Positions 21 through 46,920 of a DNA stretch of 64,000 nt are shown in pieces. The notes under the pieces were generated by a model. That model was not told the DNA's origin and searched no databases. It worked only from the letters and a program-made list of their open reading frames with translations. Position 1 is the stretch's first letter, and each line of letters begins with the position of its first letter. Source of the stretch: Craterostigma plantagineum. Lineage: Eukaryota > Streptophyta > Magnoliopsida > Lamiales > Linderniaceae. Made by a program: the position numbers and the translations under genes. Location of the stretch: NCBI GenBank assembly GCA_027422505.1, contig JAPQWV010000017.1, positions 19,345,501 through 19,409,500 of the forward strand. The letters run 5' to 3'.

Positions 21-3011
21 ATGACCTCTCGAAGAGACTGGTTCAACCACTACGAACCTATCTTAGGAGGATCTGTGTACAGTTGCGAAGATAATGCCTC
101 AAAAATCGTAGGCGTTGGAACCGTGAGGTTGAAGTTGCACGACGGTACAGTTCGCACTATTCAAGGAGTGCGGCACGTGGAAGATCTAAAGAAGAATTTA
201 TTGTCTGTAGGACAGCTCGATGATCTTGGCTGTGAAATCAAAGTTCGAGGAGGAATAATGAAAATATTTCGGGGAGCACTTGTAGTCATGAAAGGCGAAA
301 AGGTTGCTGCAAATTTGTATATGCTGTTGGGAGAGACGGTGCAAGAAGGGGAAGCGTCTGTAGCTTCGGGAAATTCAAGCGAAAGATCGACTATGTTGTG
401 GCATCAAAAGCTCGGACATATGTCGGAACAGGAATGAAAATTCTTGCAGGTCAGAATCTACTTCCGGGTCTCACGAAGGTGTCACTCCCGTTCTGTGAGC
501 ATTGCGTAGCAAACAAGCAGCATCGGCTACAATTCAACACATCAAATTCTAGAAGCAACGATATTCTAGAATTGGTTCACTCTGATGTATGGCAGTCACC
601 GGTTTCATCCCGAGGAGGGGGGAAGTACTTCGTGTCTCCCATCGACGATTACTCCCGGAGATGTTGGGTGTATATCATCAAGAGTAAGGGAGATGTGCTC
701 GTTACCTTCAAAAATTTCAAGGCTCGGGTCGAACTTGATACAGGAAAGAAAATCAAGTGTTTGAGGACGGATAATGGAGGAGAATACACTGGCAAGGAAT
801 TTGATAGCTTTTGCAAGAGGGAAGGCATCAAAAGGCACTTCACTATGGCGTACACTCCACAACAAAATGGAGTGGCAGAGCGGATGAACAGGACTCTGTT
901 GGAAAGAACAAGAGCCATGTTGGGAGCTGCAGGTCTGGATAAGTCATACTGGGCAGAAGCAGTCAACACCGCCTGCTACGTGATCAATCGATTGCCTTCG
1001 ACAGCAATTGATCAGAAGACGCCGATGGAGATGCGGACCGGAAAGCCAGCGGATTATTCCAAACTCCATGTATTTGGAAGTCCTGTGTACGTGATGTACA
1101 ACGCCCAAGAAACTACGAAGCTGGATCCGAAGTCCAGAAAGTGTTTGTTCTTGGGGTATGCTGATAGTGTGAAGGGGTATCGTCTGTGGGATCCCACTGC
1201 CCACAAGGTTGTCATCAGCAGGGAGGTTATCTTCTTAGAATCGGAGGAAATGATAGCACTACAAAGGAAAGCCCGAAATCTACGACGATTCAGGTGAAAG
1301 GGAAGTCTATTGAACAAGATTCTTCTGAAGCAGCACCGCAGCACGAGGAAGGGCCAAGCGAATCTTCAGAACCGGAACTTAGAAGGGGCACACGAAAAAG
1401 AATCGCACCATCCTGGCATGAAGATTACGATATGGACAGCAACGTTGCATACTGTCTTCTAACTGATGACGGAGAGCCATCAACTCTTCAAGAAGCACTG
1501 AACAGTTCAGATGCAGATCAGTGGTTGGCGGCAATGCAAGAAGAAATGGAACCTCTACGGAAAAATAAGACTTAGGAGTTGGTGCCACTACCTCAGGGAA
1601 GAAAGCAATCGGCAATAAATGGGTCTTTAAGATCAAGCGAAACAGCGATAATCAAGTAGAGCGGTTTCGTGCACGACTGGTGGTTAAAGGCTACGCTCAG
1701 AAAGAAGGCATTGACTTCAATGAAATATTCTCACCGGTGGTTCGATTGACGACTGTTCGGGTACTTCTGGCGATGTGTGCTACATTCGACCTACATCTAG
1801 AGCAGCTAGATGTGAAGACGGCTTTTCTTCATGGAGATCTTGAAGAAGAGATTTATGCTCCAACCGGAAGGTTTTGAAGACAAAGAAAAGCGGAACTTGG
1901 TTTGCAGGTTGAACAAATCTCTATACGTTCTCAAACAGGCGCCGAGATGTTGGTATAAGAGATTTGATTCCTTCGTCATGAGCCTTGGATACAACAGATT
2001 GAATGCAGACCCTTGTGCATGAGGTTTGGTGAAAATGATTTTATCATATTACTGTTGTATGTTGACGACATGTTGGTAGCAGGCCCCAACAAAGATCGTG
2101 TTGAAGAACTCAAGGCACAGTTGGCTAGGGAATTTGAAATGAAAGACTTGGGACCAGCAAACAAGGTTCTAGGGATGCAAATTTACCGAGACAAAAATAA
2201 TAAGAAGATTTGGCTTTCACAGAAGAATTATATGAGAAAGGTCTTGCGACGCTTCAATATGCAAGATTGTAAGCCAATTTCTACCCCATTTCTCGTTAAT
2301 TTTAAATTAAGTCCTAGCAGTGAAGAAGGGAGGATGGATATGTCTCAAGTACCGTATGCATCAGCGGTGGGAAGTCTTATGTTCGCGATGATTTGTACAC
2401 GACCAGACATTGCACATGCAGTGGGAGTAGTAAGTCGGTACATGGCGAATCCGGGCAAAGAGCATTGGAGCGCGGTGAAGAGGATCCTACGATATATCAA
2501 AGGAACCTCAGATGTTGCATTATGTTACGGAGGAGCAGACTTTACTGTCAGATGGTATGTTGACTCTGATTATGCAGGTGATCTTGATAAGAGCAAATCT
2601 ACCACGGGATATGTGTTCACTCTTACTGGCGGAGCCGTAAGTTGGGTATCGAAACTTCAGTCCGTTGTCGCGACATCAACAACTGAAGCTGAATATGTTG
2701 CAGCTACACAGGCAAGTAAAGAAGTGGTATGGTTGAAAATGATCATTGAGGAACTCGGGCACGAACAGAAGAATATTCCTCTGTTCTGTGACAGTCAGAG
2801 TGCCTTTCATCTCGCAAGGAATCCAGCGTTTCATTCCAGGTCAAAACACATACGAGTCCAGTATCACTTCGTTCGTGAGAAAGTGGAAGAGGGCACGGTA
2901 GATATGCTGAAGATTCATACGAAAGATAACCTAGCAGATTATTTAATGAAGGATGTCAACACTGACAAGTTCATTTGGTGTCGTTCCTCTAGTGGCCTAG
3001 CGGAGACGTAA
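21..3011 (+). pseudogene. Copia-1 pol remnant (integrase, RT, RNase H)
   Basis: Recognisable pol motifs are spread over at least five reading segments. GAG-pre-integrase ends with MLWHQKLGHM (about 390-420). Integrase has the HHCC finger (CEHC) and the core pieces HSDVW, TDNGGEY and TPQQNGVAERMNRT. RT has KGYAQKEGIDFNE, LDVKTAFLHGDL and YVDDMLV. RNase H has WYVDSDYAGD and STTEAEYVAA. The frame changes near 430, 1290 and 1860, there is an in-frame stop near 1575, and a short deletion near 2020 joins RT segments. No full polyprotein can be made, so it is non-autonomous. Family assignment is from motif order and is firm; lineage within Copia was not decided. Confidence 0.9.
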
Positions 3012-3086
3012 GCAACATGAATGGCAAGGGAGAAAGAATGGTGTGAAGATCTGATTGATTTTCAATCTAATCTTCAAGTGGAAGAT

Positions 3087-3537
3087 TGTCGACATATTGT
3101 TGCTTTTGCAAAGTCAAAAAGGAGCAAATGGTTTTTCTATTCTCACGTGGTCAAAGGTGAAGGTGTGCGCATTATTATTCTTTCGTTCATATTAAGGATC
3201 AGGCCATCTTATTGCCTATAAATAGAGGATCACGAAGTGCAAGAGAAATCATCCCAGAACAGAGAGAAAAGAAGAGAGAAAATAGAGAGAAATAAAAATA
3301 GAGAGTTTGTCGGTATTTTCTCCGACTATAAAGAGAGGGGTTGAGGGTTTTCTCCTTTATAGATTGAGAGGTGTAACTCCTATAGTTTTCTCTATAGTGA
3401 ATTCTTCTTCCTTACCCGTGGTTTTTATCCCGATTTGTTTGGGGGTTTTCCACGTTAAATCTCGGTGTCCACATTTTATCTTTAATTGCTCAAATATTAG
3501 CCGCAATATTATTACCGGGTCCGCTGCCACGCCAACA
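3087..3537 (+). repeat. 3' LTR of Copia-1
   Basis: About 451 bp, beginning TGTCGACA and ending GCCAACA. Much of it (about 3380-3537) closely matches both LTRs of Copia-2 (14176-14646, 15999-16466), including the block around GGTTTTTATCCCGATTTG. A TATA-like run lies near 3220 (CTATAAATAGAG). No downstream host gene in the sense direction follows directly. Confidence 0.88.
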
Positions 3538-3577
3538 CCTAGCCCATGAGGCTGATGTTTTTGAACTTATTTTCTAC

Positions 3578-4078
3578 CTGTCGATGCAAATTATTAAGCT
3601 CCATCACATCATGATCGACAATGCTAACACAGACCTGCAATTCGAACCCACCATTTCACCAAATCAACAACTAATCGAACCCAAGAACTCGATCAATCCA
3701 CACCAAGGAAAAAGGTAAGGGAGAGAAAGAATAAAAAAACGAACCAAATCCGCAACCCGCAAGGTAGAGCAACGACGGCGACCCCAATCCTCCAGCTCCA
3801 ATCACCAACACTGACGAGTTCAACAGCCTCGCCTGCACGTCGACGCCGAACGAAAGCAGCAGCAGGTGGTGGCTGGAATGCTCTCGGGGAAAAGCTCGCC
3901 GGAGAAGAGGTTTCTCAGCCGACGGCGAGGGAGACGACGCTTCTTGCACTTGAATAGCTTCAAGATGAGCTTGGAGAGCCCATATGCACGCCTCGATTCG
4001 CGACTTCTCCTCTCTCAGCGCTTCAATTTCGCGGAGAACGTCAGATGACGTCGTTTCTAGCGCACCGTTGGTATCCAT
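3578..4078 (-). pseudogene. MOCS3/CNX5 (molybdopterin-synthase sulfurylase) 5' remnant
   Basis: MOCS3 (plant CNX5) adenylates and sulfurates the small subunit of molybdopterin synthase and Urm1, in the cytosol. Exon 1 (4078-3745) has the family's coiled N-terminus (REIEALREEKSRIEA) and the ThiF/E1 nucleotide-binding loop SSVLVIGAGGLGSP. After a GT-AG intron, exon 2 (3634-3578) reads IVDHDVMELNNLHRQ, the E1 segment that contacts ATP. Signs of decay: between residues 58 and 70 the expected (R)YSRHLLLP is shifted through another frame and shortened, and exon 2 enters one base out of frame. The third and later exons are absent; Copia-1 lies in intron 2. They may lie left of the window or be lost. 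Confidence 0.78.
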
Positions 4079-4576
4079 TAGACGAGCCCCGAGAGTGTAA
4101 AGTCTTGCTCGACTTACATGGTCGCCCCGAGTGTAAAGCTCGTGCAGAGATTATGCTTATATTGAGGATTTGTGGAAGCTTGAGCTCCTTCGATTGAATG
4201 GAGAAGAACTACAGTGATGTTTAGGGCGATGATGCTAATTTGGGATTTTGAGAAATTGAAATTCAGTTCTATCTATTAAGTTGCACTCTAATGAGCTAAT
4301 TTAGCCCAAAACACATCGGGCTTTTCAGCCCACGGCTCACTAACCCGCTGGGCCTGGTGGGTCGGGCCAATTGGTCCAAACTTCACCTCTATATTGGACC
4401 ATTTATCTCGAAATCAAGATAAGATAGGATCAAACCCTTTCTTTTTACCCTCGTTGAGGGTCAAAGTTTTCGATCGGTGATTCGAATTTTGGGTTGGTAA
4501 TAACATTTGTTTGTTTACAACGTAAAAGATTGGAGAAAGATCCGAGTCAGATGGAGACAGCGCCACTTTGAACCTT

Positions 4577-4613
4577 ACGTGGCAAGCCAGGGTTTACAGT
4601 GTATGTTACGTGG
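4577..4613 (+). promoter_or_regulatory. ABRE-like ACGTGG motifs upstream of RCI2 gene
   Basis: ACGTGGC at 4577-4583 and ACGTGG at 4608-4613 lie about 165-200 bp before the RCI2 start codon, the second followed by CCAAT. ACGTGGC is the core of abscisic-acid response elements bound by bZIP (ABF) factors. RCI2 genes are classically induced by cold, salt and ABA, so placement fits. Function is inferred from motif and position only. Confidence 0.5.
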
Positions 4614-4777
4614 TCCAATTTTAGATCTTTAGCTCTTCAACAGCTGACACCTTGCCTTAATACTCTCTGTCGACCCAATATTTATTTTAAAAAGAAAAAA
4701 AAAGAACCCCATAATAATATCAGCCCCTTGCAAAACTGAGCTGCTGAAAAAACAAAATCAATATTATTACTCGATAA

Positions 4778-5041
4778 ATGGGCTCAGAAACATTTCTTGA
4801 AGTGGTGCTGGCCATCTTGCTGCCGCCGGTTGGGGTCTTCCTCAGATATGGCTGTGGAGTAATATATCTATTCTATCTTCTATTATTTTTAAATTTCATT
4901 GACGTTTATTATGACACAGTGATCTTATTTATTGTGTTTCGTATAATGTCCATCCAGGTTGAATTTTGGATCGATTTGCTGCTTACAATCTTGGGATACA
5001 TTCCTGGGATCATATACGCCATTTATGTTTTAGTTGGATAG
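4778..5041 (+). CDS. RCI2/LTI6/PMP3-type small membrane protein (two exons)
   Basis: Plant RCI2 (yeast Pmp3) proteins are tiny hydrophobic plasma-membrane proteins that limit Na+ uptake and membrane hyperpolarisation under cold and salt. Exon 1 is 4778-4858, intron 4859-4957 (GTAATA...CCATCCAG), exon 2 4958-5041, giving 54 residues, the usual family length. Signature pieces are ILLPPVGVFLRYGCG in the first membrane helix and loop, then EFWIDLLLTILGYIPGIIYA in the second. The join restores the family's CGVEFW exactly. The start is the only Met before the conserved block. It sits between the MOCS3 remnant and the last exon of the CNOT9 pseudogene and appears intact, the only clearly functional-looking gene in the first 19 kb. 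Confidence 0.95.
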   Translation: MGSETFLEVVLAILLPPVGVFLRYGCGVIYLFYLLLFLNFIDVYYDTVILFIVFRIMSIQVEFWIDLLLTILGYIPGIIYAIYVLVG

Positions 5042-5322
5042 TAAGCGCAAAGGTTCTGTTTTTTTCTTGATAAGTGTCTGAAGTAACAATAATTCTGTAA
5101 TGATCTCCTTATGTAATGAACTTAAAGCTTTCATATTATCTGTTCTTAATCTACTGCTCTATTGCTGGAGTTATGTTATATTACATTGTCAGAGGAAACT
5201 AAACCACTAAACCATTAATATAAATGAAGTTAATAAAAAAAATGATCAATCGCTTCTCCAAAGCAAATAATGAACTATACAGATGGCCTAAAGATCACAC
5301 TTGAAGATCATATAATCAAAAC

Positions 5323-5424
5323 CTATTGCTCATGAAAATAAATAGGCGGCTGAATCGCAAAGTGAGTCCTTTGCTGCAAGTTGTGCAGCAGCTGTTGCAG
5401 CCATTCTCTCATCGTTGGATCGTC
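5323..5424 (-). pseudogene. CNOT9 pseudogene last exon
   Basis: After TTTTTCTTAG, 33 codons then TAG. It begins DDPTMREWLQQLLHNL, matching the family C-terminus EDPTTRRWLQQLLHNV, followed by a variable tail. It lies immediately left of the retroelement array, on its far side from exon 6. Confidence 0.85.
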
Positions 5425-5471
5425 CTAAGAAAAAAAAAGACATTTATAGTTACTATTGTTAACTGCTTCAC

Positions 5472-6679
5472 CTACATGTCTTTTTGGCGCGCTTTTTCCT
5501 TCTTATCGCGCTCCATCTCTTTTGGGCTGACCTCATTAGGTTCCCCGATCTTTTGTTTACTGACTTCTTCGCCAATCTTTTGCAGGGCCTTCATCATGGC
5601 TGCATGCGCATCCATCTCATCGCGCTCATGAGTCTCTCCTCGTACGACTTCTTCAGCCTGCTGGGTTATTTCTTCAACATACTCACCGCCTTTTTCGGAC
5701 ACTGTCTCGTGTGTCTATATGGCTTTCACGTTCGCTTTGTAGGCATTTTCGTTAGCCTTTTCCGACGATGCATGCATGGTGGCGTCGGCCTTGCTTTTCA
5801 TCTCATCGGCATTTTCCGATGTCTTCGCGTCGATCTCCACGACTTTCTCAGGTGGTTGTCGTGGCGGCGTCTCTTCAATCGCCTTTTCTTTCTCGAGCTT
5901 TGGGGACTCCTCCTCGTAGGGAGGTTTCGTTGGTGGAGTGGTGGTGGATACTTCACGAGTGATATTTTCTTTTATCAATTCAATGGCTGCTTCAGCCTTT
6001 TTCTCTTCCTTCACGGCCTTTTCGGCCTTTGGAGATTTTTTCTCCTTTTCATCGCCATCGACTTTCATCTTTGATGATTCGCCTTCTTCTTTTCCCGTCT
6101 CGGATTTTAGTGGTGTTTCGACTTTTTTCTTTTCAGCCACCGGCTCGGCGTGATCTTTATCACGCTTGGTCTCGGCGTCACCATCTTCTTGTATGTGTTC
6201 GCCTTCAACGTTCTTGTCGTCCTCCTTCGTCGTTGCAAGTTCGCCCAGTTTTTGTGGCTGAACTCGGTTGGTGTAATCAGCGTCTTTGTACGCTTTCTCC
6301 AACAGATCCCAGACTTCTTTGGCTTTTCTCGTTGTGCCTATCGCTCCAAAACCGGTAAAATTTAACGCTTTGTAGATGAGAAGGACCGCGAGACCATTTT
6401 CTCTAACGGCAGCTCCAACGTCTTCCGTTGCGACTTTGTATACTTCGTCGTATCTGATGAATATCCATTTTCGACTATCTCCCATAAGCCTTGCGATTTG
6501 AATAGAGCTTTCATTTCGACGCTCCACCTTGCGTAGTTATTTTCGATGAGTTGCGGGATTAACATGTGGGCAAATAATATCCGCTTCCACACCATTGGCA
6601 CCATCGGCTCTGCGGACTCTGGCGACATCATCGGCTCTTGCTCCATCGGCGTTGGCGACACCATCGGCTCTGATACCAT
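5472..6679 (-). pseudogene. Chimeric Gag/HSP70 ORF, copy A (broken, truncated)
   Basis: Starts like copy B, then loses one base near 6411 (LGAAVREN becomes out of frame), picks up a stop near 5715 and another directly after RQKDM near 5474. It ends at about 5462, so the HSP70-like part and 3' end are missing. Amino-acid identity to copy B over the shared part is high. Confidence 0.85.
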
Positions 6680-6681
6680 TT

Positions 6682-7149
6682 TGTTGTTTTATTTTTTTTA
6701 TATATGAGATCGAATGAGGAGGAACGATTTCTTTTCAGACAGAGGAACAACACCTTTTTCCTATTTCTTACATGCACACACACGTTAAGCTTTTCTCTTT
6801 TTCTCCACTCGCCACACACGGCACTTTCTGCCTTTTCTCTCCACTCTTCACATGCACGCAACTCACTCCCCTTACATCTCTTCAAGGTCTAATACCGATA
6901 TATATATAGATACAAACTAAGAGTTAGTCAAGCATCTAATTCATCATAGTAGATTTAGGCGGCTGGGGATATTGCTTTTTTCGTCTTCTTCATATTTTTC
7001 TTCCCCAAAGATCCTCTTTTCTTGCTACTATCTTGACTATTGCATGCAGCCTCTCACGCTTCATGCTTCTTTCTTCTTATCTTGTTACTGTTCATTTTCA
7101 TGCTTTTGTTATTTTCTTTTGTGTGGGTCAGCTTGGAGATTAGTCAACA
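6682..7149 (-). repeat. LTR 1 of chimeric array
   Basis: About 468 bp with TGTTGAC...ACAACA ends on the minus strand. It is very similar over its length to LTRs at 8972-9443 and 11195-11700. It separates internal B (to the left in minus reading order is its purine tract AAGGGGAAAT) from internal A. Confidence 0.88.
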
Positions 7150-7181
7150 AATTTCCCCTTAATCTCAATGCTTTTTATATT

Positions 7182-8969
7182 TTATCGCTCTTTAAATTTG
7201 ACCCGCTTTCGTCTGTCGTACGTCGCGGCTCTCCGTTTTCCGTCAATAATTGCCTTCGAACACTTCGCTGCAATACTTACTTCTCGGCCTGCCTTATACG
7301 CTTTTTCACCGTCACTACGTTCTTTCGTTGTCCCTCTGCTTTTCGGATTTTGCTCGACCATCAACTTTCCTTCTTGGACCAGCTTCGTCTTTTGGCTAGT
7401 TTCTTCTAACGTGTTCTTCTTTTCAAACAGCTCTTCGTCACCATTATCGGGATTGTCGAATCCTTCATGCTCCTTTTCGTCCATGGTGGCAACCATGTAC
7501 TCCTCTGTCTCGTTGTTCACGAGCGCATCGTTGTTATTAGTGACCTCCTCCTCGACTTTTCTGCAGTTTTCGTCGCTTTCTGCTTCTTTCAGATTTTGGT
7601 TATCGTCTACCGCCTCGAGGGTCTCCTTGTTCATCGTCGTAATTTCGTCATTCTCGTCCGCTTCTAATTTTTCGGCAAGCTTGTACTTGTCGTTGCTTCG
7701 GGTTTTCAATTCGTTCATGTAGGCCTCAAGGTTGTCTCTCGCCTTGATCCACTGCTTCACCTCCATGTCTTTTTGGCGCGCTTTTTCCTTCTTATCGCGC
7801 TCCATCTCTTTTGGGCTGACCTCATTAGGTTCCCCGATCTTTTGTTTACTGACTTCTTCGCCAGTCTTTTGCAGGGCCTTCATCATAGCTGCATGCGCAT
7901 CCATCTCATCGCGCTCATGCGTCTCTCCTCGTACGACTTTTTCAGCCTGCTGGGTTATTTCTTCAACAGCCTCACCGCCTTTTTCGGACACTGTCTCGTG
8001 CGTCTCTATGGCTTTCACGTTCGCTTTGTAGGCATTTTCGTTAGCCTTTTCCGACGATGCATGCATGGTGGCGTCGGCCTTGCTTTTCATCTCATCGGCA
8101 TTTTTCGATGTCTTCGCGTCGATCTCCACGACTTTCTCAGGTGGTTGTCGTGGCGGCGTCTCTTCAATCGCCTCTTCTTTCTCGAGCTTTGGGGACTCCT
8201 CCTCGTAGGGAGGTTTCGTCGGTGGAGTGGTGGTGGATACTTCACGAGTGATATCTTCTTTTATCAATTCAATGGCTGCTTCAGCCTTTTTCTCTTCTTT
8301 CACGGCCTCTTCGGCCTTTGGAGATTTTTTCTCCGTTTCATCGCCATCGGCTTTCATCGTTGATGATTCGCCTTCTTCTTTTCCCGTCTCGGGTTTTAGT
8401 GGTGGTTCGACTTTTTTCTTTTCAGCCACCGACTCGGCGTGATCTTTATCACGCTTAGTCTCGGCGTCACCATCTTCTTGTACGTGTTCGCCTTCAACGT
8501 TCTTGTCGTCCTCCTTCGTCGTTGCAAGTTCGCCCAGTTTTTGTGGCTGAACTCGGTTGGTGTAATCAGCGTCTTTGTACGCTTTCTCCAACAGATCCCA
8601 GACTTCCTTGGCTTTTCTCGTTGCGCCTATCGCTCCAAAACCGGTAAAATCTAACGCTTTGTAGATGAGAAGGACCGCGAGACCATTTTCTCTAACGGCA
8701 GCTCCCAACGTCCTCCTTTGCGACTTTGTATACTTCGTCGTATCTGATGAATATCCATTTTCGACTATCTCCCATAAGCCTTGCGATTTGAATAGAGCTT
8801 TCATTTCGACGCTCCACCTTGCGTACTTATTTTTGGTGAGTTGCGGGATTAACATGTGGGCAAATAATATCCGCTTCCACACCATTGGCACCATCGGCTC
8901 TGTTGACTCTGGCGACATCATCGGCTCTTGCTCCATCGGCGTTGGCGACACCATCGGCTCTGATACCAT
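7182..8969 (-). CDS. Gag-like/HSP70-lid chimeric protein, intact copy (595 aa)
   Basis: Unnamed protein of the chimeric LTR element. Residues about 36-125 resemble the Copia Gag DUF4219/UBN2 region (YARWSVEMKALFKSQGLWEI, then LLIYKALD and AKEVWDLLEKAYK). Residues about 130-395 are Lys/Glu-rich and repetitive, LEA- or coiled-coil-like. Residues about 395-475 align without gaps to the C-terminal helical lid of BiP/HSC70 (IKARDNLEAYMNELK, DKYKLAEKLEADE, LEAVDDNQN). The tail is acidic, then basic. There is no zinc knuckle, signal peptide or enzyme motif. The start codon lies in the primer site and nothing upstream is in frame. This is the only one of three copies with an open frame. Function is unknown; it may be a Gag-like particle protein that has captured a host chaperone fragment. 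Confidence 0.8.
   Translation of the reverse strand: MVSEPMVSPTPMEQEPMMSPESTEPMVPMVWKRILFAHMLIPQLTKNKYARWSVEMKALFKSQGLWEIVENGYSSDTTKYTKSQRRTLGAAVRENGLAVLLIYKALDFTGFGAIGATRKAKEVWDLLEKAYKDADYTNRVQPQKLGELATTKEDDKNVEGEHVQEDGDAETKRDKDHAESVAEKKKVEPPLKPETGKEEGESSTMKADGDETEKKSPKAEEAVKEEKKAEAAIELIKEDITREVSTTTPPTKPPYEEESPKLEKEEAIEETPPRQPPEKVVEIDAKTSKNADEMKSKADATMHASSEKANENAYKANVKAIETHETVSEKGGEAVEEITQQAEKVVRGETHERDEMDAHAAMMKALQKTGEEVSKQKIGEPNEVSPKEMERDKKEKARQKDMEVKQWIKARDNLEAYMNELKTRSNDKYKLAEKLEADENDEITTMNKETLEAVDDNQNLKEAESDENCRKVEEEVTNNNDALVNNETEEYMVATMDEKEHEGFDNPDNGDEELFEKKNTLEETSQKTKLVQEGKLMVEQNPKSRGTTKERSDGEKAYKAGREVSIAAKCSKAIIDGKRRAATYDRRKRVKFKER
8957..8968 (-). promoter_or_regulatory. tRNA-iMet primer-binding site of internal B overlapping start codon
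   Basis: TGGTATCAGAGC on the minus strand is the usual Copia primer site. The ORF's ATG at 8969-8967 overlaps its first two bases, so the site encodes the first residues (MVSEP). The same arrangement occurs at 6667-6678 (A) and 11180-11191 (C). Confidence 0.85.
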
Positions 8970-8971
8970 TT

Positions 8972-9443
8972 TGTTGTTTTATTTTTTTTATATATGAGAT
9001 CGAATGATGAGGAACGATTTCTTTTCAGACAGAGGAACAACACCTTTTTCCTATTTCTTACATGCACACACACGTTAAGCTTTTCTCTTTTTCTCCACTC
9101 ACCACACACGGCACTTTCTGCCTTTTCTCTCCACTCTTCACATGCACGCAACTCACTCCCCTTACGTCTCTTCAAGGTCTAATACCGATATATATATAGA
9201 TACAAACTAAGAGATAGTCAAGCATCTAATTCATCATAGTAGATTTAGGAGGCTGGGGATAGATTGCTTTTTTCGTCTTCTTCATATTTTTCTTCCCCAA
9301 AGATCCTATTTTCTTGCTACTATCTTGACTATTGCATGTGCAGCCTTTCACGCTTCATGCTTCTTTCTTCTTATCTTATTACTGTTCATTTTCATGCTTT
9401 TGTTATTTTCTTTTGTGTGAGTCAGCTTGGAGATTAGTCAACA
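8972..9443 (-). repeat. LTR 2 of chimeric array
   Basis: About 472 bp with the same termini. It is the 3' LTR of internal C and the 5' LTR of internal B. The tract AAGGGGGGAA just before it on the minus strand is the internal C polypurine tract. Confidence 0.88.
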
Positions 9444-9469
9444 AATTCCCCCCTTAATCTCAAAGCTTT

Positions 9470-11190
9470 TTATATTTCATCGCTCTTTAAATTTGACCCG
9501 TTTTCGTCTGTCGTACGTCGCGGCTCTCCATTTTCCGTCAATAATTGCCTTCTTATACGCTTTTTCACCGTCACTACGTTCTTTCGTTGTCCTCTGCTTT
9601 TCGAATTTTGCTCGACCGTCAACTTTCCTTCTTGGACCAGCTTCATCTTTTGGCTAGTTTCTTCTAACGTGTTCTTCTTTTCGAACAGCTCTTCGTCACC
9701 ATTATCGGGATTGTCGAATCCTTCATGCTCCTTTTCGTCCATGGGGCAACCATGTACTCTTCTGTCTCGTTGTTCACGAGCGCATCGTTGTTATTAGTGA
9801 CCTCCTCCTCGACTTTTCTGCAGTTTTCGTCGCTTTCTGCTTCTTTCAGATTTTGGTTATCGTCTACCGCCTCGAGGGTCTCATTGTTCATCGTCGTGAT
9901 TCGTCATTCTCGTCCGCTTCGGCAAGCTTGTACTTGTCGTTGCTTCGGGTTTTCAATTCGTTCATGTAGGCCTCAAGGTTGTCTCTCGCCTTGATCCACT
10001 GCTTCATCTCCATGTCTTTTTATCGCGCTCCATCTCTTTTGGGCTGACATCATTAGGTTCCCCGATCTTTTGTTTACTGACTTCTTCGCCAGTCTTTTGC
10101 AGGGCCTTCATCATGGCTGCATGCGCGTCCATCTCATCGCGCTCATGCGTCTCTCCTCGTACGACTTTTTCAGCCTGCTGGGTAATTTCTTCAACAGCCT
10201 CACCGCCTTTTTCAGACACTGTCTCGTGTGTCTCTATGGCTTTCACGTTCGCTTTGTAGGCATTTTCGTTAGCCTTTTCCGACGATGCATGCATGGTGGC
10301 GTCGGCCTTGCTTTTCATCTCATCGGCATTTTTCGATGTCTTCGCGTCGATCTCCACGACTTTCTCAGGTGGTTGTCGTGGCGGCGTCTCTTCAATCGCC
10401 TCTTCTTTCTCGAGCTTTGGGGACTCCTCCTCGTAGGGAGGTTCCGTTGGTGGAGTGGTGGTGGATACTTCACGAGTGATATTTTCTTTTATCAATTCAA
10501 TGGCTGCTTCAGCCTTTTTCTCTTTTTTCACGGCCTTTTCGGCCTTTGGAGATTTTTTCTCCTTTTCATCGCCATCGGCTTTCATCTTTGATGATTCACC
10601 TTCTTCTTTTCCCGTCTCGGGTTTTAGTAGTGTTTCGACTTTTTTCTTTTCAGCCACCGGCTCGGCGTGATCTTTATCACGCATGGTCTCGGCGTCACCA
10701 TCTTCTTGTACGTGTTCGCCTTCAACGTTCTTGTCGTCCTCCTTCGTCGTTGCAAGTTCGCCCAGTTTTCGGGCTGAACTCGTTTGGTTTAATCAGCGTC
10801 TTTGTACGCTTTCTCCAACAGATCCCAGACTTCCTTGGCTTTTCTCGTTGTGCCTATCGCTCCAAAACCGCTAAAATCTAACGCTTTGTAGATGAGAAGG
10901 ACCGCGAGACCATATTCTCTGACGGCAGCTCCCAACGTCTTCCGTTGCGACTTTGTATACTTCGTCGTGTCTGATGAATATCCATTTTCGACTATCTCCC
11001 ATAAGCCTTGCGATTTGAATAGAGCTTTCATGACGCTCCACCTTGCGTACTTATTTCGGTGAGTTGCGGGATTAACATGTGGGCAAATAATATCCGCTTC
11101 CACACCATTGGCACCATCGGCTCTGTTGACTCTGGCGACATCATCGACTCTTGCTCCATCGGCGTTGGCGACACCATCGGCTCTGATACC
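9470..11190 (-). pseudogene. Chimeric Gag/HSP70 ORF, copy C (broken)
   Basis: Same layout as copy B, with several breaks: a small deletion in the Gag part near 11035, a change near 10770, a deletion near 10020 that gives MERDKKTWR then stop, a deletion in the HSP70-like part near 9910, a one-base loss near 9745, and a shortened C-terminus near 9560-9600. Cannot make the full protein. Confidence 0.85.
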
Positions 11191-11194
11191 ATTT

Positions 11195-11407
11195 TGTTGT
11201 TTTATTTTTTTTATACATGAGATCGAACGAGGAGGAACGATTTCTTTTCAGACAGAGGAACAACACCTTTTTCCTATTCCTTACATGCACACACACGTTA
11301 AGCTTTTCTCTTTTTCTCCACTCACCACACACGGCACTTTCTGCCTTTTCTCTCCACTCTTCACATGCACGTAACTCACTCCCCTTACATCTCTTCAAGG
11401 TCTAATA

Positions 11408-11463
<56 letters not shown>

Positions 11464-11700
11464 GATACAAACTAAGAGATAGTCAAGCATCTAATTCATC
11501 ATAGTAGATTTAGGCGGCTGGGGATAGATTGCTTTTTTCGTCTTCTTCATATTTTTCTTCCCCTCTTTTCTTGCTACTATCTTGACTATAGCATGTGCAG
11601 CCTCTCACGCTTCATGCTTCTTTCTTCTTATCTTATTACTGTTCATTTTCATGCTTTTGTTATTTTCTTTTGTGTGAGTCAGCTTGGAGATTAGTCAACA
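11195..11700 (-). repeat. LTR 3 of chimeric array
   Basis: About 506 bp, longer than its sisters because an AT dinucleotide run at 11410-11454 has expanded. Its outer end abuts the sixth codon of CNOT9 exon 6. Confidence 0.88.
11410..11454. repeat. (AT)n microsatellite in LTR 3
   Basis: About 45 bp of uninterrupted AT, where LTR 1 and LTR 2 carry only a short ATATATATA. It shows expansion after the LTRs diverged. Confidence 0.95.
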
Positions 11701-25708: not shown

Positions 25709-28135
25709 TCAACGATCATCATCAGACTCCGAGTCCGTCGCGCAACTTCTCCTCGAAGATCCAAAGCTTCTCCGCTTCTTAACGCTTTTATGGCTCTTTT
25801 TACTGTATCGTCCATCGAATGACCCTTCCTCTCCTTCACTGCTCGAGCTATCGTAATTTTCCCCAAGAACGCCCTCGTTCTTCCTCGAGCTCGAACGCCT
25901 ACAATAACTTTCTCTCGAGCTCGAGCGACTTTCGATCCTTTTCTTTCCCTTCAAACACTTTTCATGGTCCGAACTGCACGAGCCATCATCATCGTCTTCG
26001 TTATACTCATAGTCAGAGTTGTCAGACGAGCTCTCTCTATCTTCTTCGCCTTCGCTCGGACAGCTAATTTGCCGTTCGACGTTGTTATTACAATGGTTGG
26101 AGAAATTGCTGAGCCTCATCGAATTGTTGTTGTTATTGTCGCAGTACTGTCTGCTCGAGTCGACCCGAGAGGAAAGTATGGAGAGGAGGCGTGTGGGTAT
26201 GGGCGCTTCGGGCGGGGCGGTTACTAAGAAGGAGAGGGCTGCTGAGATGTCGCTGATGAAGGGCCGAGCTTGTGGCTCGTCCTGGAGGCACATTGCAGCA
26301 ACTCCGATGGCTTGGTTTAGGCTAGTCACTGGGAAGTCCTTTCGGAGGAGGGTATCTGCCATGTCGGGAAATCTCGATGGATCTCGAAAAATCGGCTGTG
26401 CCTGTCGATAATATAAGCAACAATTGTTGTCAAACCACTCTTTTGTTAACATAAAATCAGCACAAATGAAAGACATTTCACGAAATTCGCTTTCCTCGCT
26501 TTTCTCCCTGCAACTTATCTCTGCCCAGAATTAGTCCAGTATATTTCCAAGTAACTAAAATTTATCATAACTTTCAAGAAATTCGTTCCTCGTACGCTAA
26601 TCTGTCTCTGTCGAGTCCATGTGTTTACCAATATTTACCTCAATAGTGCTTTTTCGAAAAATTTCAACCTACATAAATAGCCCTTCCACTTTGTGCAAAT
26701 TTCATTGAAGTTCTTGTTCAAGCAAAATCATATTTCCCTTATCTTTCACGAAAACATACTGGGCAAGTTTCGAACAAGGAAAAATTAGAGGGCGAAAAAT
26801 GAATTTCGCGAAAGATATACGACTCTTTTTGGATATGTATAACGCAGAGGAAGAAAATCAAATTACGTAAAAGTTACCCTACCAAATTAAATTTACTCCG
26901 TAAGACTTACCCAACTGACGAGATTTTGCTCGTCCATAGACTTCGAAGAATCGAACGCCCGTCGCCCAGTTATAAGCTCCAACAACACGACCCCAAAACT
27001 ATACACGTCAGACTTGGACGTCAGCTCGCCGTTTATTTCGTACTCGGGAGCGCAATATCCATAAGCCGTCATAACCCTCGGCATCTTATTATCGCCGCTC
27101 TGCACGAGCTTGGCGAGCCCATACTCCGATAGCCTGGCATTGTGCTCCTCGTCCAAGAGTACGTTCGAGGACTTCAAATCTCGGTATATGATAGGCGGGT
27201 CGGCCCTCTCGTGAAGGTACTCGAGCCCTTGCGCTATGCCCAGTGCCACTTCCATCCTCGTCGTCCAGTTCATTGGCTTCTTCCCGGCGGGAAGTTCTGC
27301 GCATATTTGTAATACAAAAAGAAGTGTTTGTTTTTTTGCAAAGTAAATGAGCATCTTGAAAGAAGACATTATGCACTTACCGAAAAGGTGGCTTTTCAAA
27401 GAACCCGAGGACATGTATTCGTAAACCAATATGCGCTGCTCGCCGTCCGCGCAATACCCTATTAATTTAACGAGATTCGGGTGGTTTATTTCAGCCAACG
27501 AAGAAACGGCGAGCTGAAACTCTTTCGCTCCTTGAGTCCCATTCCTATGTAGTTGCCTCACGGTAACGATCTGCACGTGGATGTAATAACGGAAAAATGG
27601 AGAAAAAAACGCTCAAAACAAACCGAATTTCGTTCGTGCGCTTAATTTTTACATTTAATAAAGAAAACCTGTCCGCTTGGCGTAAGAGTTCCTCTGAAGA
27701 CTCGCCCGAATCCGCCTTCCCCTAATAAGCATTCTTGCCTGAAATTCTTCGTCGCGCTGGCGAGTTCGCGGAATGTGAAGCCCTTTACTGTACTAATGTT
27801 TTCGCCGCCGTCCTTCGAATGATCATGCGCAGAGCTGTTATGGTTCGAATCTACCGATGGGGTTTGGCCGAGGTTGTTGTCGGCTGTAATAACGATACAA
27901 AAGAGAGGAATCTATAAGCAACATTTTTCTACTGCATTTGCCCTATTATTGCATTCTATTTTTTACGACGAATATATGCTAATATATGCGAATAGATAAT
28001 AACAAAAATAATACAGCGAGGTGGTGGTGGAGCGACGGGTTTAGGTGGCTCGGCGACGGGCACCAAGGTGGCATTGTTGTCGTTATTATTGCTTTCTTGT
28101 TGTTGCCTGTTTTGAAAACATGGGAAGCAGTTCAT
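25709..28135 (-). CDS. RLCK-VII/PBL family receptor-like cytoplasmic kinase, probable pseudokinase
   Basis: PBL proteins are membrane-anchored kinases working below immune receptors. Exons: 28135-28015, 27883-27669, 27570-27381, 27296-26911, 26401-25709; all introns GT-AG, 534 residues. The start MNCFPCF has the Cys-rich lipid-anchor motif of the family. Kinase domain from [14 protein letters not shown], Gly loop [11 protein letters not shown]. Three key residues differ: beta-3 Lys is Arg (VTVRQ, R117), the alpha-C Glu is Ala (A133), and DFG is EYG (E233). The catalytic loop YRDLKSSN is kept. The C-terminus (about residues 365-534) is unusual: long, Ser/acidic then basic, likely disordered. 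It looks expressed and open. Whether it still binds ATP cannot be told; a signalling scaffold is one possibility. Confidence 0.92.
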
Positions 28136-36716: not shown

Positions 36717-39700
36717 ATGGACGTTACAAGCTCAAACCACCTCGCCAAAGTTCCTGTGTTAGACGGCTCCAATTATGCCTATTGGAAGGTCCGTGTTCGG
36801 CAGTGCATCAAGTCCATCGATGTGCGAGCTTGGGAAGCAGTGCTGCATGGTTATACGACTCCAAAGACTCCACAAGACGCTGATGGCGAAGTCGTGGATA
36901 AGCCGTTCGAGCAATGGACGATCGCTGAGAAGAACGCGGCCGAATACAATGACAAGGCACTCAACGCCATCTTCTCGTCCGTGGACATGTTTATGTTCAA
37001 AATCATCCAAAATTGCTCTACTGCTCAAGATGCGTGGGATCTTCTCCAGAAGTACTGTGAAGGCGACGCTAGTGTGCGTGAAACCAAGCTTCGCCTCCTC
37101 CTCAGTCAGTTCGAGAACATCAGAATGAAGGAAGACGAAGATATCAGCACGTACTTTGGAAAGCTGTTGACGATCTCAAGCGAGTGCGCCAGCCTAGGAG
37201 ATCCTATGACAAATAAGGTATTAAACTCTAAAGCTCTTCGTACACTAACCGAAAAATTCAATGTGAAGGTATCGGCAATCGAGGAATCATACAACCTAGC
37301 AAACATGAACTTCACCGTCTTGATGAACATTCTGAAAAACTTCGAAACCAATCTCGAAGTCCAAAGGAGGGCTGCACGAGGAAAGAGTGTTGCACTGATC
37401 AGCCAGCCATCGAAGGAACAGATTGAGTTCGATCCCAACAATGAAGAGGACATGGCCATGGTTGTGAAGAGATTTGCGAAGTACTTTAAAAAGAAGAATG
37501 TTGTGCAGAATGTTGGCCCAACATTCAGAAAAGGCCAGAATGCACAAATTGAAACCTCTTCTGCCCCTCCGTTCGTAAAGCGCAAGCCATTTGCTAAGTC
37601 TGATGGAAAGAAAAAGAATATCAACTATGAGGCAATTAGATGCTTTGAATGCCAAGGTTGGGGCCATTTTGCCAACGAATGTGCTAACACACTTCGCAAG
37701 CTTGGTAAGTCTATGTGGATCGACTTGTCAGACGATGAAGATGAAGATGAAGAGCCTAAGCAATCGTCAGTGACCATACAGTCCTTTTCTGATGATGAAG
37801 AAGATGAAGATAATCAAATCGGACTTACTGCGGTAACTGATGTTGAGCCAACATCTGACTCAACATCTGTAAAACACATTATTTTTGATTATGATGATTC
37901 AAACTGTCTTGATGGTCTTTTGAGTTGTGATTCAGAACCAGAAACAGAGAGTTGTGAAGAAGCCTTTAAGCAGTTGTCCACGAAATACGACTTGGAGAGG
38001 GCAAATAACCTTCAACTCCAAGCTGCGGTGAAACTATTGGTCGAAGAAAATAAGAAAAATGAAAAGATCATTGAAGGCTTGATGGATGGCATGAACAAGT
38101 TGGAAGCCGCACTGACAAGAAAAGAGAGGGAACTCGACACGCTTCAAAAACATGTCAATAAAGCCGAGGAAACGTTCACTAAATTGAACAAGGGTAAGTC
38201 CACCCTTGATGATATATTGTCTCTTGGTATTTATGATAAGCAAGGCCTAGGATTTAGTGCTCAGCTTGCATGTGATAGCTCAAAACCCGTGTCTCATAAT
38301 CAGCCTAAGATAGTTTTTGTTAAAGCTAAATCTGTGAATGACGATGTTGAAATCGTAAAGCCTAAAAATAGTCCCGAGTATGTGACCCAGAAAAATCATG
38401 ATAAATCATATGTGTGTGATCATTGTAAGAAGTTAGGTCATTTGAAGTCATACTGCTGGAAATTGAAGAGAGAGATTTCTGCAAAGAAATCGATGTCGGC
38501 TGAAGTGTCACCCAACATATCGGTCAACATTGAGAAATCAGTATTGAAAGATATGTCTGGTACAGGCTCAGCTGGCTCATCTTCGAATTCCGGTGATCAG
38601 AATGCCGTTAAACCTCCTAAGAAAGCTTGGATCAAGAAATCAGGTCATAAATGTTTAGTTGTATACACCTCTTTGCGAGCTAACGTGACAGGTTCATGGT
38701 ACTTTGATAGCGGGTGTTCCCGACATATGACGGGTACCAAAGAATATCTCAGTGATTACATGCCCTTAAGGAGTGGATCTGTGACGTTTGGAGGTGGTTC
38801 GAAAAGTAGAATTCTTGGTCGAGGCAGATTAAATGTGCCCGACTTTCCCAAGCTTAGCAACGTGCTGCATGTAGACGGGCTTATAGCGAATTTGATCAGC
38901 ATAAGCCAGCTGTGTGATGATGATCTCGAGGTAAGGTTTAATAAGGAGTGTTGTGAAGTTTATAACCGAAATTCTGTTCGAGTAATGGCAGGTAAGAGAT
39001 CTAGCGACAATTGCTACCTAGTGGGGAACAAATCGGGTGTGAAGGATGTGTGTCAACTATCAAAAGCCGAAGACGATGTTGTGCTTTGGCATTACAAATT
39101 AGGTCATGTCAACTACAGAACATTGGAACAACTTATCAAACATGATGCAATAAGAGGCATTCCAAAACTTAAGGAGTTTGGTAAGGTCGTTTGTGAGTCG
39201 TGTTTGAAGGGTAAGCAAACACATGTTAGTCACACTGTTGACCAACAAGCTGCCCAACATTTTAAAACTGCTCACTGTTTTCAATTAATTCACATGGATT
39301 TGATGGGTCCTATGGAAGTAGAAAGCATAGGAGGTAAGAAATATGCGTATGTGCTCGTGGATGATTTTTCTAGATATGCGTGGATTTTCTTTCTTAGGGA
39401 CAAAGCGGAATCGTTCGTATTCTTTAAAAATTTCTGTGCTATGATAAGGAACAATTTCAGTGCTACTGTCTTTCGTATTAGGTCTGATCATGGTAGAGAG
39501 TTTGAGAATCAGTATTTTGATGAGTTCTGTGATAAGAAAGGCATAGTGCATGAGTATTCTTCCCCTAAGACGCCCCAACAAAATGGGGTGGCCGAAAGGA
39601 AGAATAGGACTTTACAAGAGATGGCTCGTGTTATGCTATTATCTAAGAATGTTTCTAAGCGTTTTTGGGCTGAAGCATTGCATACGGCATGTCACATTTC

Positions 39701-44263: not shown

Positions 44264-46920
44264 TCAACGCCGCGAGCATTGTCTAGCACGGGTTTCGCCC
44301 CTATCCATCTCATTCCTGATGCGATTTCGACTATATCTACCGGGACCAGTTCTCTCTCGGCGAGATTCGTTATGAATAAGAGTCCAATCTTCGGCAGTCC
44401 AGTAACGTTCGTCGTGCAATGGTTCGAAGGTACCTTCGTATGTCTTGTAATACTCCAACTTACTGTAATACTGCGCCACTAAATTACCGGAGTGAATTTG
44501 CCATTTACGACAAGCCGCTTGTGCATGAGAACATGGGATGTTATACCTGCTCCAATTTCCACACGTGCATGTTCGATCATTGATCCTTACCACATATGTG
44601 CGCTGATGAATTCCAGATGTTATGACTTCTGCTGTATGTTGTCGGACATCAAAACGATATACTGTGTGATCCCAAGATTCTGCCGTCCAACTTTGAAACA
44701 ATCTCGTTGCATAACGTGACCAATTCGATTCATTATTCGCAATTAGGGACGATGCTTCTTGAAAGCGATCACGAAAATACTGTACGCACCTGTGAATTTG
44801 CAGAAATACAATAATAAGTCATAACAACAAATTAAAAAATGATAAGGTCGTGATTAGAGTCTACCCATGGAAAGTGAAATCGACGATTGCTCTTGCGGGT
44901 AGCATTCGAGCACCTTTTAATACCCCGTTGAGCCCTTCTGAAATATTAGTCGTCATGACACCACATCGATAAACGTCGTCGTGTGCTAGCGTCCATTGCT
45001 CGACCCCTACTTTTTCTAACCAAGGCTTTGCATGTTCATTAATTTGCGTAATCTGAGCCATAACGCGATCGAATTTATCCAATGTTGGCGCAGTACCGGC
45101 TCTATGACATAGATCCTTCAATTGTTGATCCTTGAATTTCTTGTAGAAGTTTGACTTTACATGACGAAGACAGAAGCGATGCACTCCATTTGGCGGACGA
45201 AAGAATTCAGTGGCTTCTACCGTTCCCGTAAGACCTGTGTACACCATGTACGCCACTAAAAGTAACTGATTTTACGAAAATAATGAATAAATTACATTAC
45301 TAAGATTAAATACCTGGATGACGATCCGAAATAAGACAAATCGATTGATTCTGTAGAACAAACATGTTCAAATTTGTAAGGAACCAAGTCCATGAGTGTG
45401 TACTTTCTTCCGTGACAATGGCAAAGGCCAGGGGAAAGACGTTTGGTTGGCATCCAGCGACGTAGCAGTAATTTGTGTCTATATTTGGAGTATAAATGCG
45501 TACTATCGACACAAACAACTCTTCGACAATGCTTGAAACCATCGATGCTCGGTTTAAAAGCCCAAAAGACATACCCGAGCACGAAGTCTCCAGGTCTCCC
45601 TGTCTCCAGATTCAGCCACCTTACGATTGTCCCTGGATTGTAATGCTGCAACGCTTTCATAAATGTTGGGAGTTTGGTAACAGACTCTTCCCACGTACCG
45701 TAAACATTTTCCATAGCTCTTTTCAGACCATGCCAAGCTTGAATATATGAGATATCATAGCCATATCTATCTTTCACGAGTTGTTGGACATTCTTTGGGA
45801 GGAATTGCGGATCGACTTTCACGGTTCCAACCAACAAATCAGCAATAAAATTTCGAGAGATATTACGGTGTGTGCTCGCCAGTTCAGTCATATAGCAATT
45901 GTGTGGTCCTTCAAATTTTGTAATAGACCAGTAGCCTTTTTTTGGCTTGAAGGATGCCCTCAGTCTCCAAGGGCAATCTCTCGTGTGATCACATTGAACA
46001 CTCCAACGTGTATTGCTGCTCTCGTTGACGTTATACTCGCGTCTAGCAACCCTGATCGAAAAATCGTCGACGGCACGTTGTAAATGTTTCTTAGTTTGAA
46101 AAATCATACCTCGACAAAATGTAGGGTTATCTCTGTCGTAAAACTCTCCGTAACCACCGTAGTCGTCACCACCAGGAGGTGGCATTTGGTACGTTTGGAA
46201 AAATGGGACGGACTGAAACAGCATTGGAGCAGTAGAGTCCAGCGGAGTGGTATCATCTGGGGCATCCTCGTCGTTGTTCTCGTCGTCGTCGTTGGGATCG
46301 GGTAACTCGGACAATGGATCCTCATCGTCTGCTTCCGAATCACTAACATCAACGTCTTCCTCAGGTTCAGGCACGAAGTCTGGCACGGGTTCTGACACGG
46401 ATTCTGGCATATTGAATGGAACACCAAGCGTCGGCATCTCCAGAGAAACATTGCTGAACCCTGTCGTAACTGAGACAATGTCGGGAAAATCCGGACATGT
46501 ATAACTGGAAGAACCAACTTCAAACGCAGGAAACTCGCACCGCTCCTCAAAATTGCGATGAAGCTCTTCGTTCAAATCAAAGTGTGAATTTTCAACCGCC
46601 TCAACAAAAACTTCAAGACAATTGTTCTCCGAATCGGGATGTATGAAAAATTGTAGATCGCTGTCGTTGGAGATTTGGAGTAGCTGATGAAAGTGGCGAG
46701 AATGTTGAAAGTATTCATTTTTCTCATAGACAACAAACGAACAACGACTACTATCAGCACCCGTAATTTCGAACAACAATGATATAAACTCAGAAAAATT
46801 GGTATTACGACGAATTCGCCTATATGCAATAGGACGAATACTATATTTGACGGTGGAATCGGATGATTGAATTATTTCACCGCCGAAATAAACTATGACT
46901 TGTATGCGACTCGACACCAT
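44264..46920 (-). pseudogene. MULE (MuDR-like) transposase, one frameshift
   Basis: Transposases of Mutator-like elements cut and insert DNA with a DDE catalytic triad. Exons: 46920-45314, 45255-44865, 44789-44264. The N-terminal part is a PB1/MuDR-type domain with an acidic linker, then a zinc-finger-like block (CDHTRDCPWRLRASF, GPHNC). The DDE domain has VVCVDSTHLYSKYRHKLL (first Asp), CLISDRHP (second Asp) and NISEGLNGVL (Glu). The C-terminal SWIM finger CTCGNWSRYNIPCSH is whole. One frame change near 45470 breaks exon 1, restored in an alternative frame (VFPLAFAIVTEESTHSWTWF), so it is recently inactivated or a sequencing error. No terminal inverted repeats were identified. It is in opposite orientation to Copia-4. 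Confidence 0.88.

Follow-up and report, generated by a model that had tools for sequence, protein, structure and literature searches.

A non-autonomous, Gag-only Copia-type retrotransposon family of Craterostigma plantagineum with likely captured BiP and HSP90 gene pieces

The window analyzed here is a stretch of 64,000 nucleotides from Craterostigma plantagineum (assembly GCA_027422505.1, contig JAPQWV010000017.1, positions 19,345,501 to 19,409,500), whose genome comprises 1.71 Gb in 6262 contigs. On its reverse strand, at about positions 5464 to 11700, three long terminal repeats (LTRs) and three internal regions stand in tandem, in the order truncated internal region 1, LTR, internal region 2, LTR, internal region 3, LTR. 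The sole open copy is the 595-residue open reading frame (ORF) of internal region 2, which occupies 1788 of the 1822 internal bases of its unit; the ORF of internal region 3 is broken. This ORF, in which part of a Copia-type Gag is joined to a segment resembling the C-terminal lid of the chaperone BiP, and the family of elements to which it belongs are the subject of this report. Coordinates are given in Table 1.

Table 1. The tandem array and its open copy, with positions counted from the first base of the window
Feature	Position	Strand	Description
Upstream-most LTR	11195-11700	-	506 bp; TGTTGACTAATC...AACAACA termini; similarity to the other units ends at 11700/11701
Internal region 3	9444-11194	-	Same ORF, disrupted by small deletions and frameshifts; relative to internal region 2, 1750 sites carry 46 substitutions, with indels in addition
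Middle LTR	8972-9443	-	472 bp; 5' LTR of the intact unit
Primer binding site TGGTATCAGAGC	8957-8968	-	Overlaps the ATG of the ORF; starts three bases past the LTR
ORF, 595 amino acids	7182-8969	-	Partial Gag, charged linker, BiP-lid-like segment, C-terminal part with basic tail
Gag-like segment, residues 44-152	8514-8840	-	DUF4219 and first half of the Copia gag domain
Lys/Glu-rich linker, residues 166-375	7845-8474	-	No Pfam or PDB match; near-neutral, pN/pS 0.89 of neutral
BiP/HSP70 lid-like segment, residues 376-477	7539-7844	-	PDB, protein-database, shuffle and profile tests
HSP90-core gap point, after residue 512	7433-7434	-	In-frame absence of the core (from alignment); often 43 amino acids in sister copies
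Basic C-terminal tail ATYDRRKRVKFKER, residues 582-595	7185-7226	-	No CCHC zinc knuckle in the ORF
Polypurine tract AAGGGGAAATT	7150-7160	-	Abuts the 3' LTR
Downstream LTR	6682-7149	-	468 bp; 3' LTR of the intact unit; differs from the middle LTR by K 0.0195
Internal region 1, truncated	5464-6681	-	Start set by eye; ORF broken

The LTRs of the array start with TGTTGACTAATC and finish with AACAACA, and those flanking the open copy have the form 5'-TGTTG...CAACA-3'. The primer binding site TGGTATCAGAGC is presumably complementary to the 3' end of the plant initiator Met-tRNA. A tRNA scan gave zero hits. The LTR edge at 11700 is the only outer boundary preserved, and the outer edge of the array coincides there with an LTR terminus, as an insertion predicts. 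Internal region 1 lacks approximately its last 600 bp, including most of the BiP-like segment, together with the outer LTR, and because this end is truncated, no target duplication of the array is visible. Divergence (K) between LTRs of the array is 0.0195 to 0.024, which at a substitution rate of 1.3e-8 corresponds to an age of 0.75 to 0.93 million years. In the outermost LTR, an AT repeat is expanded to about 28 units at positions 11411 to 11467; in the other LTRs this place is taken by a short TATA-like run.

In searches of the whole ORF against Pfam (E ≤ 1), the only families matched were Retrotran_gag_2 (E 7.7e-8, residues 56 to 152, profile positions 1 to 92 of 172) and DUF4219 (E 6.6e-5), and neither pol nor HSP70 was found; NCBIfam gave zero matches. 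In a two-sequence BLASTP comparison, the Gag segment matched the Gag of a Copia gag-pol ORF located at positions 36717 to 41819 of the window (E 8e-8; 27% identity over 115 positions). That ORF (forward strand) is intact, encodes 1700 amino acids and may represent a full-length autonomous element; it is distant from the family described here, and we do not claim it as the partner. For the Gag-like segment, the family profile compared with P0012 by hhalign gave Prob 96.8. The Gag region yielded a single match in the protein-database search, a protein of Arabis nemorensis, among 194 candidates, and 15 pattern matches in viral contigs included no relative. The linker had no match in Pfam or PDB, and no protein-database search was aimed at the linker alone. 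These results agree with the original prediction, made by a model from the sequence alone, which had described a 595-residue ORF with a DUF4219/UBN2-type Gag start and a Lys/Glu-rich linker before a BiP/HSC70-like lid, lying between LTRs with a primer site and purine tract and lacking pol. Three things were not part of it: the arrangement of the units in tandem, the existence of a family throughout the genome and, in sister copies, an HSP90 segment.

The BiP-like segment was identified by several comparisons with chaperones of other species, as was the HSP90 segment described below. In a phmmer search of 177,635 PDB sequences, all four matches at E ≤ 1 were GRP78/BiP, the best at 3.8e-4. When residues 340 to 490 were searched against 5.77 billion proteins, 11 matches at E ≤ 10 were obtained among 434 candidates (best E, 3.2e-3). 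All came from Solanaceae; ten were named BiP or luminal-binding protein, and the eleventh (P0007), named hypothetical, was 95% identical to the first (P0001). The same database searched with the whole ORF returned no match at E ≤ 1e-3 among 7,998 candidates, possibly a result of the candidate list being taken up by the charged linker. The Smith-Waterman score to P0001 was 152, compared with means of 66 to 69 and a maximum of 115 for four sets of 1000 shuffles, three of which preserved local composition. The alignable portion is confined to the lid region and its edge, and neither the nucleotide-binding domain nor the substrate-binding beta domain of HSP70/BiP aligns. The gapless alignment of the original prediction was correct for human BiP, over residues 395 to 471, and incorrect for the Solanaceae BiPs, against which a 2-residue gap is needed.

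Querying the host genome with the ORF gave at least 148 matching stretches (74 of 12,934 candidates scored), and querying it with the middle LTR gave at least 45 (40 of 206 candidates scored). The search for other copies proposed with the original prediction uncovered a large and diverse family. The 40 loci that were fetched are the best-scoring matches of the ORF query. LTR pairs, defined as direct repeats longer than 150 bp with a spacing of 1.5 kb or more (a few, in L019, L029 and L046, are partial), were present in 36 of the 40; 9 of the 36 pairs were identical, and 20 were at least 99% identical. In 25 of the 40 loci, a search no farther than 12 bases from the repeat ends found a perfect 5-bp target duplication; this count has no chance control and includes a few low-complexity cases (TTTTT, ATATA). 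The primer-site motif occurred in 39 of the 40; the purine tract was examined in the window only. From these data, the family appears to have been active recently. Tandem arrays of the form LTR-internal-LTR-internal-LTR recur in L028 and L034 (about positions 1809 to 7037, reverse strand), and in L034 the same 5 bp, the low-complexity ATATA, stand at both ends of the entire array. The LTR matches often span only positions 1 to 313 or 308 to 472, approximately, which suggests mosaic LTRs whose halves were exchanged between subfamilies.

The loci contained 39 ORFs of at least 400 amino acids, two of which were dropped for lack of similarity to the query. The 37 open ORFs kept (447 to 730 amino acids) came from 35 loci, the remaining five giving none, and the window ORF brings the set to 38. 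Each sister ORF was 62 to 79% identical to the window ORF, and the overlap of the ATG with the primer site was seen in 29 of the other 37. At E ≤ 0.01, Pfam scans of the 38 ORF sequences detected DUF4219 in 37 and Retrotran_gag_2 in 10 and detected no pol family. A basic tail was recognized by pattern in 30 of the 38, and a CCHC zinc knuckle in 0 of the 38. In 25 of the 703 ORF pairs, one segment was at least 95% identical and another at most 70% identical; segment-wise mosaics of this kind would be as expected from template switching or recombination.

A BiP profile matched all 38 family ORFs past the linker, with whole-protein E values from 8.9e-14 to 0.0022 in a search of the 38 sequences. 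By best-stretch score the window copy ranked seventeenth, with 16 sister ORFs above it. A profile-profile comparison of the BiP segment gave Prob 95.3. When the family profile was searched against PDB, there were 48 matches at E ≤ 1: 12 to the HSP70 family, GRP78 first (2.5e-8, profile positions 371 to 477); 35 on the HSP90 part (first at 2e-5, profile positions 507 to 613); and a single match outside HSP70 and HSP90, to phosducin, at E 0.14. These families were counted by name, and one of the 35 matches is named only "heat shock protein, putative." No unrelated coiled-coil protein thus matched as well as BiP/HSP70 in the PDB and protein-database searches, in keeping with the original prediction.

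The BiP-like segment is followed in sister ORFs by an HSP90 segment (Pfam E 4.9e-19 in L017, above the cutoff of that model, and 1.9e-13 in L016), and the order of parts in the family is partial Gag, linker, BiP lid, spacer, HSP90 part and basic tail. The best stretch of L017 corresponds to HSP90 profile positions 220 to 351 of 518. In PDB, L017 aligned with yeast HSP82 (E 3.8e-19) over two stretches, one after the other; the second corresponds to the beginning of the C-terminal domain. Because endoplasmin follows closely (E 4.4e-17), a cytosolic HSP90 is only the likelier source, and by these alignments the segment probably derives from the cytosolic type. The HSP90 ATPase N-terminal domain and complete middle and C-terminal domains are absent, and the segment does not constitute an HSP90 family member.

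The HSP90 segment was tested in 37 of the 38 ORFs, one being too short past the BiP segment. The first HSP82 stretch scored above all 300 shuffles made for each ORF in 25 of the 37, and the second did so in 3. No HSP90 core was detectable in 12 of the 37, including the window copy (z −0.2 in the HSP82 shuffle test). The junction sequence at the gap point of the window copy is common to six of the 38 ORFs; another of these six, L009, has an identical LTR pair. The window copy lacks the residues of the HSP90 core of its sisters and therefore most likely descends from a lineage with two captured chaperone segments.

To assess constraint, the ratio of replacement to silent change (pN/pS) was determined for 17 to 19 disjoint ORF pairs per segment and compared with 200 neutral simulations, which took their transition bias from LTR pairs and included neither CpG nor other context effects. 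The LTR rates were estimated from 33 of the 36 pairs, three loci with tandem or overlapping repeats being excluded. Raw pN/pS values were not used as such, because the method alone yields 0.77 to 0.83 under neutral simulation. Relative to neutral, the observed pN/pS was 0.64 for Gag, 0.89 for the linker, 0.67 for the BiP-like segment and 0.66 for the C-terminal part with its HSP90 piece. The numbers of simulations at or below the observed value were 0, 11, 0 and 0 of 200, respectively. The captured segments are therefore about as constrained as Gag, and the linker is near neutral. Within the BiP-like segment, a Trp at window residue 407 is invariant in the family and not invariant in the BiP rows compared; it possibly reflects a constraint acquired after capture.

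We interpret the locus, with a probability of roughly 80%, as a tandem array of a non-autonomous Copia-type element whose ORF combines a partial Gag with a likely captured homologue of the BiP lid; the product would be a modified Gag, with enzymes likely supplied in trans. More broadly, the comparisons indicate that a non-autonomous, Gag-only LTR retrotransposon family likely took up pieces of two host chaperone genes. Host gene capture, the reading offered with the original prediction, is the best account, because the homology is specific to BiP/HSP70, is enclosed by a canonical LTR element and is shared by all 38 open ORFs. In the life cycle that we envisage, transcription by polymerase II would start in the LTR, initiator Met-tRNA would prime reverse transcription, a full-length Copia element would provide reverse transcriptase and integrase, and the RNA would be packaged in particles built with the Gag of that partner. 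Template switching is a usual explanation for such fusions, and both segments may have been captured by template switching onto abundant chaperone mRNA, a route that fits fragments from two stress-related genes.

As to what the captured segments do, we judge the odds to be about even that they form a helical, charged arm which, with the basic tail, replaces the missing capsid half and zinc knuckle and holds RNA or particle partners, without being a working chaperone. A repurposed arm is favored over a working chaperone part because the pattern of conservation in the segment speaks against a lid-specific role and the structural models consist of one long helix. A function as a complete chaperone was rejected, since the domains are missing. 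A more ambitious proposal, that Gag was rebuilt from BiP-lid and HSP90 pieces, which took the place of the absent capsid half and nucleocapsid and now couple particle assembly to the HSP70-HSP90 machinery so that the element is favored under heat or stress, strikes us as quite doubtful.

Several observations weigh against our interpretation of the locus. The Pfam HSP70 model was found at E ≤ 0.01 in none of the 38 ORFs, and on isolated window fragments it reached E 0.88 on one of two; the profile check proposed with the original prediction was thus upheld by the BiP profile and the profile-profile comparison and not by Pfam HSP70. Pfam HSP90 at E ≤ 0.01 was found in only 5 of the 38, and when 10 ORFs were scanned singly, HSP90 was found in 2, with none at E ≤ 0.5 in the other 8. 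A folded lid is unsupported, because AlphaFold2 modeled the window segment as one long helix both without and with BiP rows, with low predicted template modeling scores (0.46 and 0.42). Positions conserved in the family were not enriched at BiP positions shared by human and Solanaceae (17/45 versus 15/45; p 0.83) and were only marginally enriched where the BiP residue is kept (21/32 versus 25/58; p 0.049). Between array units there was no departure from neutrality (unit 1 versus unit 2, 26 replacement and 9 silent changes, p 1; unit 3 versus unit 2, 26 and 15, p 0.16), implying that copies decay after insertion like any transposon. Intact copies and open frames are overrepresented, because the fetched loci were the best-scoring matches. 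Finally, the family ORFs are not all independent, since the letters next to the LTR edge are the same in L033 and L034, which may represent a single insertion present on two contigs.

Two of the explanations that compete with capture by a mobile element concern what the segment or the locus is. Convergence of a Lys/Glu-rich helix on BiP, with no homology, would be compatible with a segment that is charged, is modeled as a helix and does not reach the Pfam HSP70 threshold, but we regard it as very improbable: apart from the one phosducin match of the family profile, BiP/HSP70 proteins and no other coiled coils were matched, every locally shuffled control fell below the real score, 16 sister ORFs outscore the window copy, and a clear HSP90 segment adjoins the BiP-like one. 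A chance coiled coil was accordingly rejected on the PDB, protein-database, shuffle and family-profile results. There is slighter chance still that the locus is a host tandem array of a domesticated Gag fusion gene and no mobile element. Three tandem units with one ORF each would look like such an array, and the portion of a plant study available to us describes domesticated fusions of Gag with host proteins (PMC9784723), but LTR termini, a primer site, a purine tract, and dispersed copies with 5-bp duplications and identical LTR pairs speak for an element. The host array was rejected on this LTR anatomy and the dispersed copies.

The other two competing explanations accept capture and differ in what followed. 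It is rather unlikely that the chaperone segments are mere passengers, chance acquisitions from abundant stress mRNAs in an ORF that stays open solely for the sake of Gag or so that the RNA is translated. The array units are indistinguishable from neutral, the HSP90 core is undetected in 12 of 37 ORFs (the window copy among them) and conservation does not track BiP core positions, all as passengers would have it; yet the BiP-like segment is retained in 38 of 38 open ORFs, and the BiP-like and C-terminal segments, unlike the linker, have pN/pS values as low as that of Gag and below all 200 neutral simulations. Recruitment or mimicry of chaperones, in which the segments bind HSP70/HSP90 partners or clients and aid Gag assembly or heat-stress coupling, we hold to be unlikely, if somewhat easier to entertain. 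The presence of pieces of two chaperone families in one ORF and the signature of purifying selection are in its favor, as is the listing, in the part of a yeast study available, of the Hsp90 co-chaperones Cpr7 and Sse1 as host cofactors of Ty1 (PMC3522557). It is opposed by the failure of the nucleotide-binding and substrate-binding domains to align, by models that show no folded lid, and by six ORFs that share one junction and lack the HSP90 core, L009 with its identical LTR pair among them.

Elsewhere in the window, degraded Copia pol, with pieces of integrase and of reverse transcriptase/RNase H recognized by eye, lies at positions 398 to 3011 (forward strand). On the reverse strand, positions 25709 to 27576 hold putative fragments of a PBS1-like receptor-like cytoplasmic kinase gene, and positions 45292 to 46920 hold a 542-residue ORF whose product resembles a MuDR-type transposase.

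The closest precedent in kind is the maize element Bs1, which, according to the available part of the source, contains pieces of the genes for plasma membrane H+-ATPase, xylan endohydrolase and beta-1,3-glucanase (PMC13317346). Like Bs1, the family described here is an LTR element with fragments of more than one host gene. Bs1 is not known to carry pol, and its copy number is low. The present family differs in being large and diverse, with many near-identical LTR pairs, and in having a single ORF in which a Copia Gag-like segment precedes BiP and HSP90 segments. The comparison with Bs1 made in the original prediction holds, all 38 ORFs showing the BiP-like segment and 25 of 37 showing HSP90, and is closer than was thought, given the second host-like segment of the family. 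Host fragments captured by LTR elements are commonly regarded as passengers that do not last long. In rice and sorghum, 672 and 1,343 captured host gene sequences, respectively, have been reported in LTR elements, and the main text of that survey, as far as available, never uses the terms "heat shock," "HSP" or "chaperone" (PMC3726574). In the accessible portions of two reviews, a chaperone role is only proposed, for ENV-like proteins, among the additional ORFs of plant LTR elements (PMC7264820), and HSP70/90 appear only as screening candidates among plant host factors (PMC12786077). Among the matches listed in a literature search of open-licence PMC articles, by titles and abstract openings, there was no LTR element with BiP/HSP70 or HSP90 sequence.

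Gag fused to host protein domains is also known from sunflower, where HadGAG1-3 join a domesticated Gag to USP7, KELP/PC4 and NTF2; in the available text, these are host genes with 4 to 10 exons and no LTRs, whereas the fusion described here resides within mobile elements (PMC9784723). The same source describes TR-GAG elements, which are non-autonomous, have two LTRs around a single GAG ORF and are in some cases mobile (PMC9784723). The present family shares with them the LTR pair, primer site, single ORF with a GAG domain, absence of pol from the ORFs and target duplications, and the window copy has the purine tract as well. Unlike TR-GAG elements, as far as they are described in that part of the source, the window copy has only the first half of the Copia gag domain, and the family has no zinc knuckle and fills the rest of its ORF with a linker and chaperone-derived segments. 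We class the family as a TR-GAG family that is very probably gene-transducing. Diverse, with many young copies and with segments of two chaperone families in its sole ORF that are constrained like Gag, it offers a test case on two questions: whether host sequence acquired by transduction can be turned into a functional component of the particle of a retrotransposon, and by what means an element with Gag alone persists when it lacks pol, a nucleocapsid and a complete capsid.

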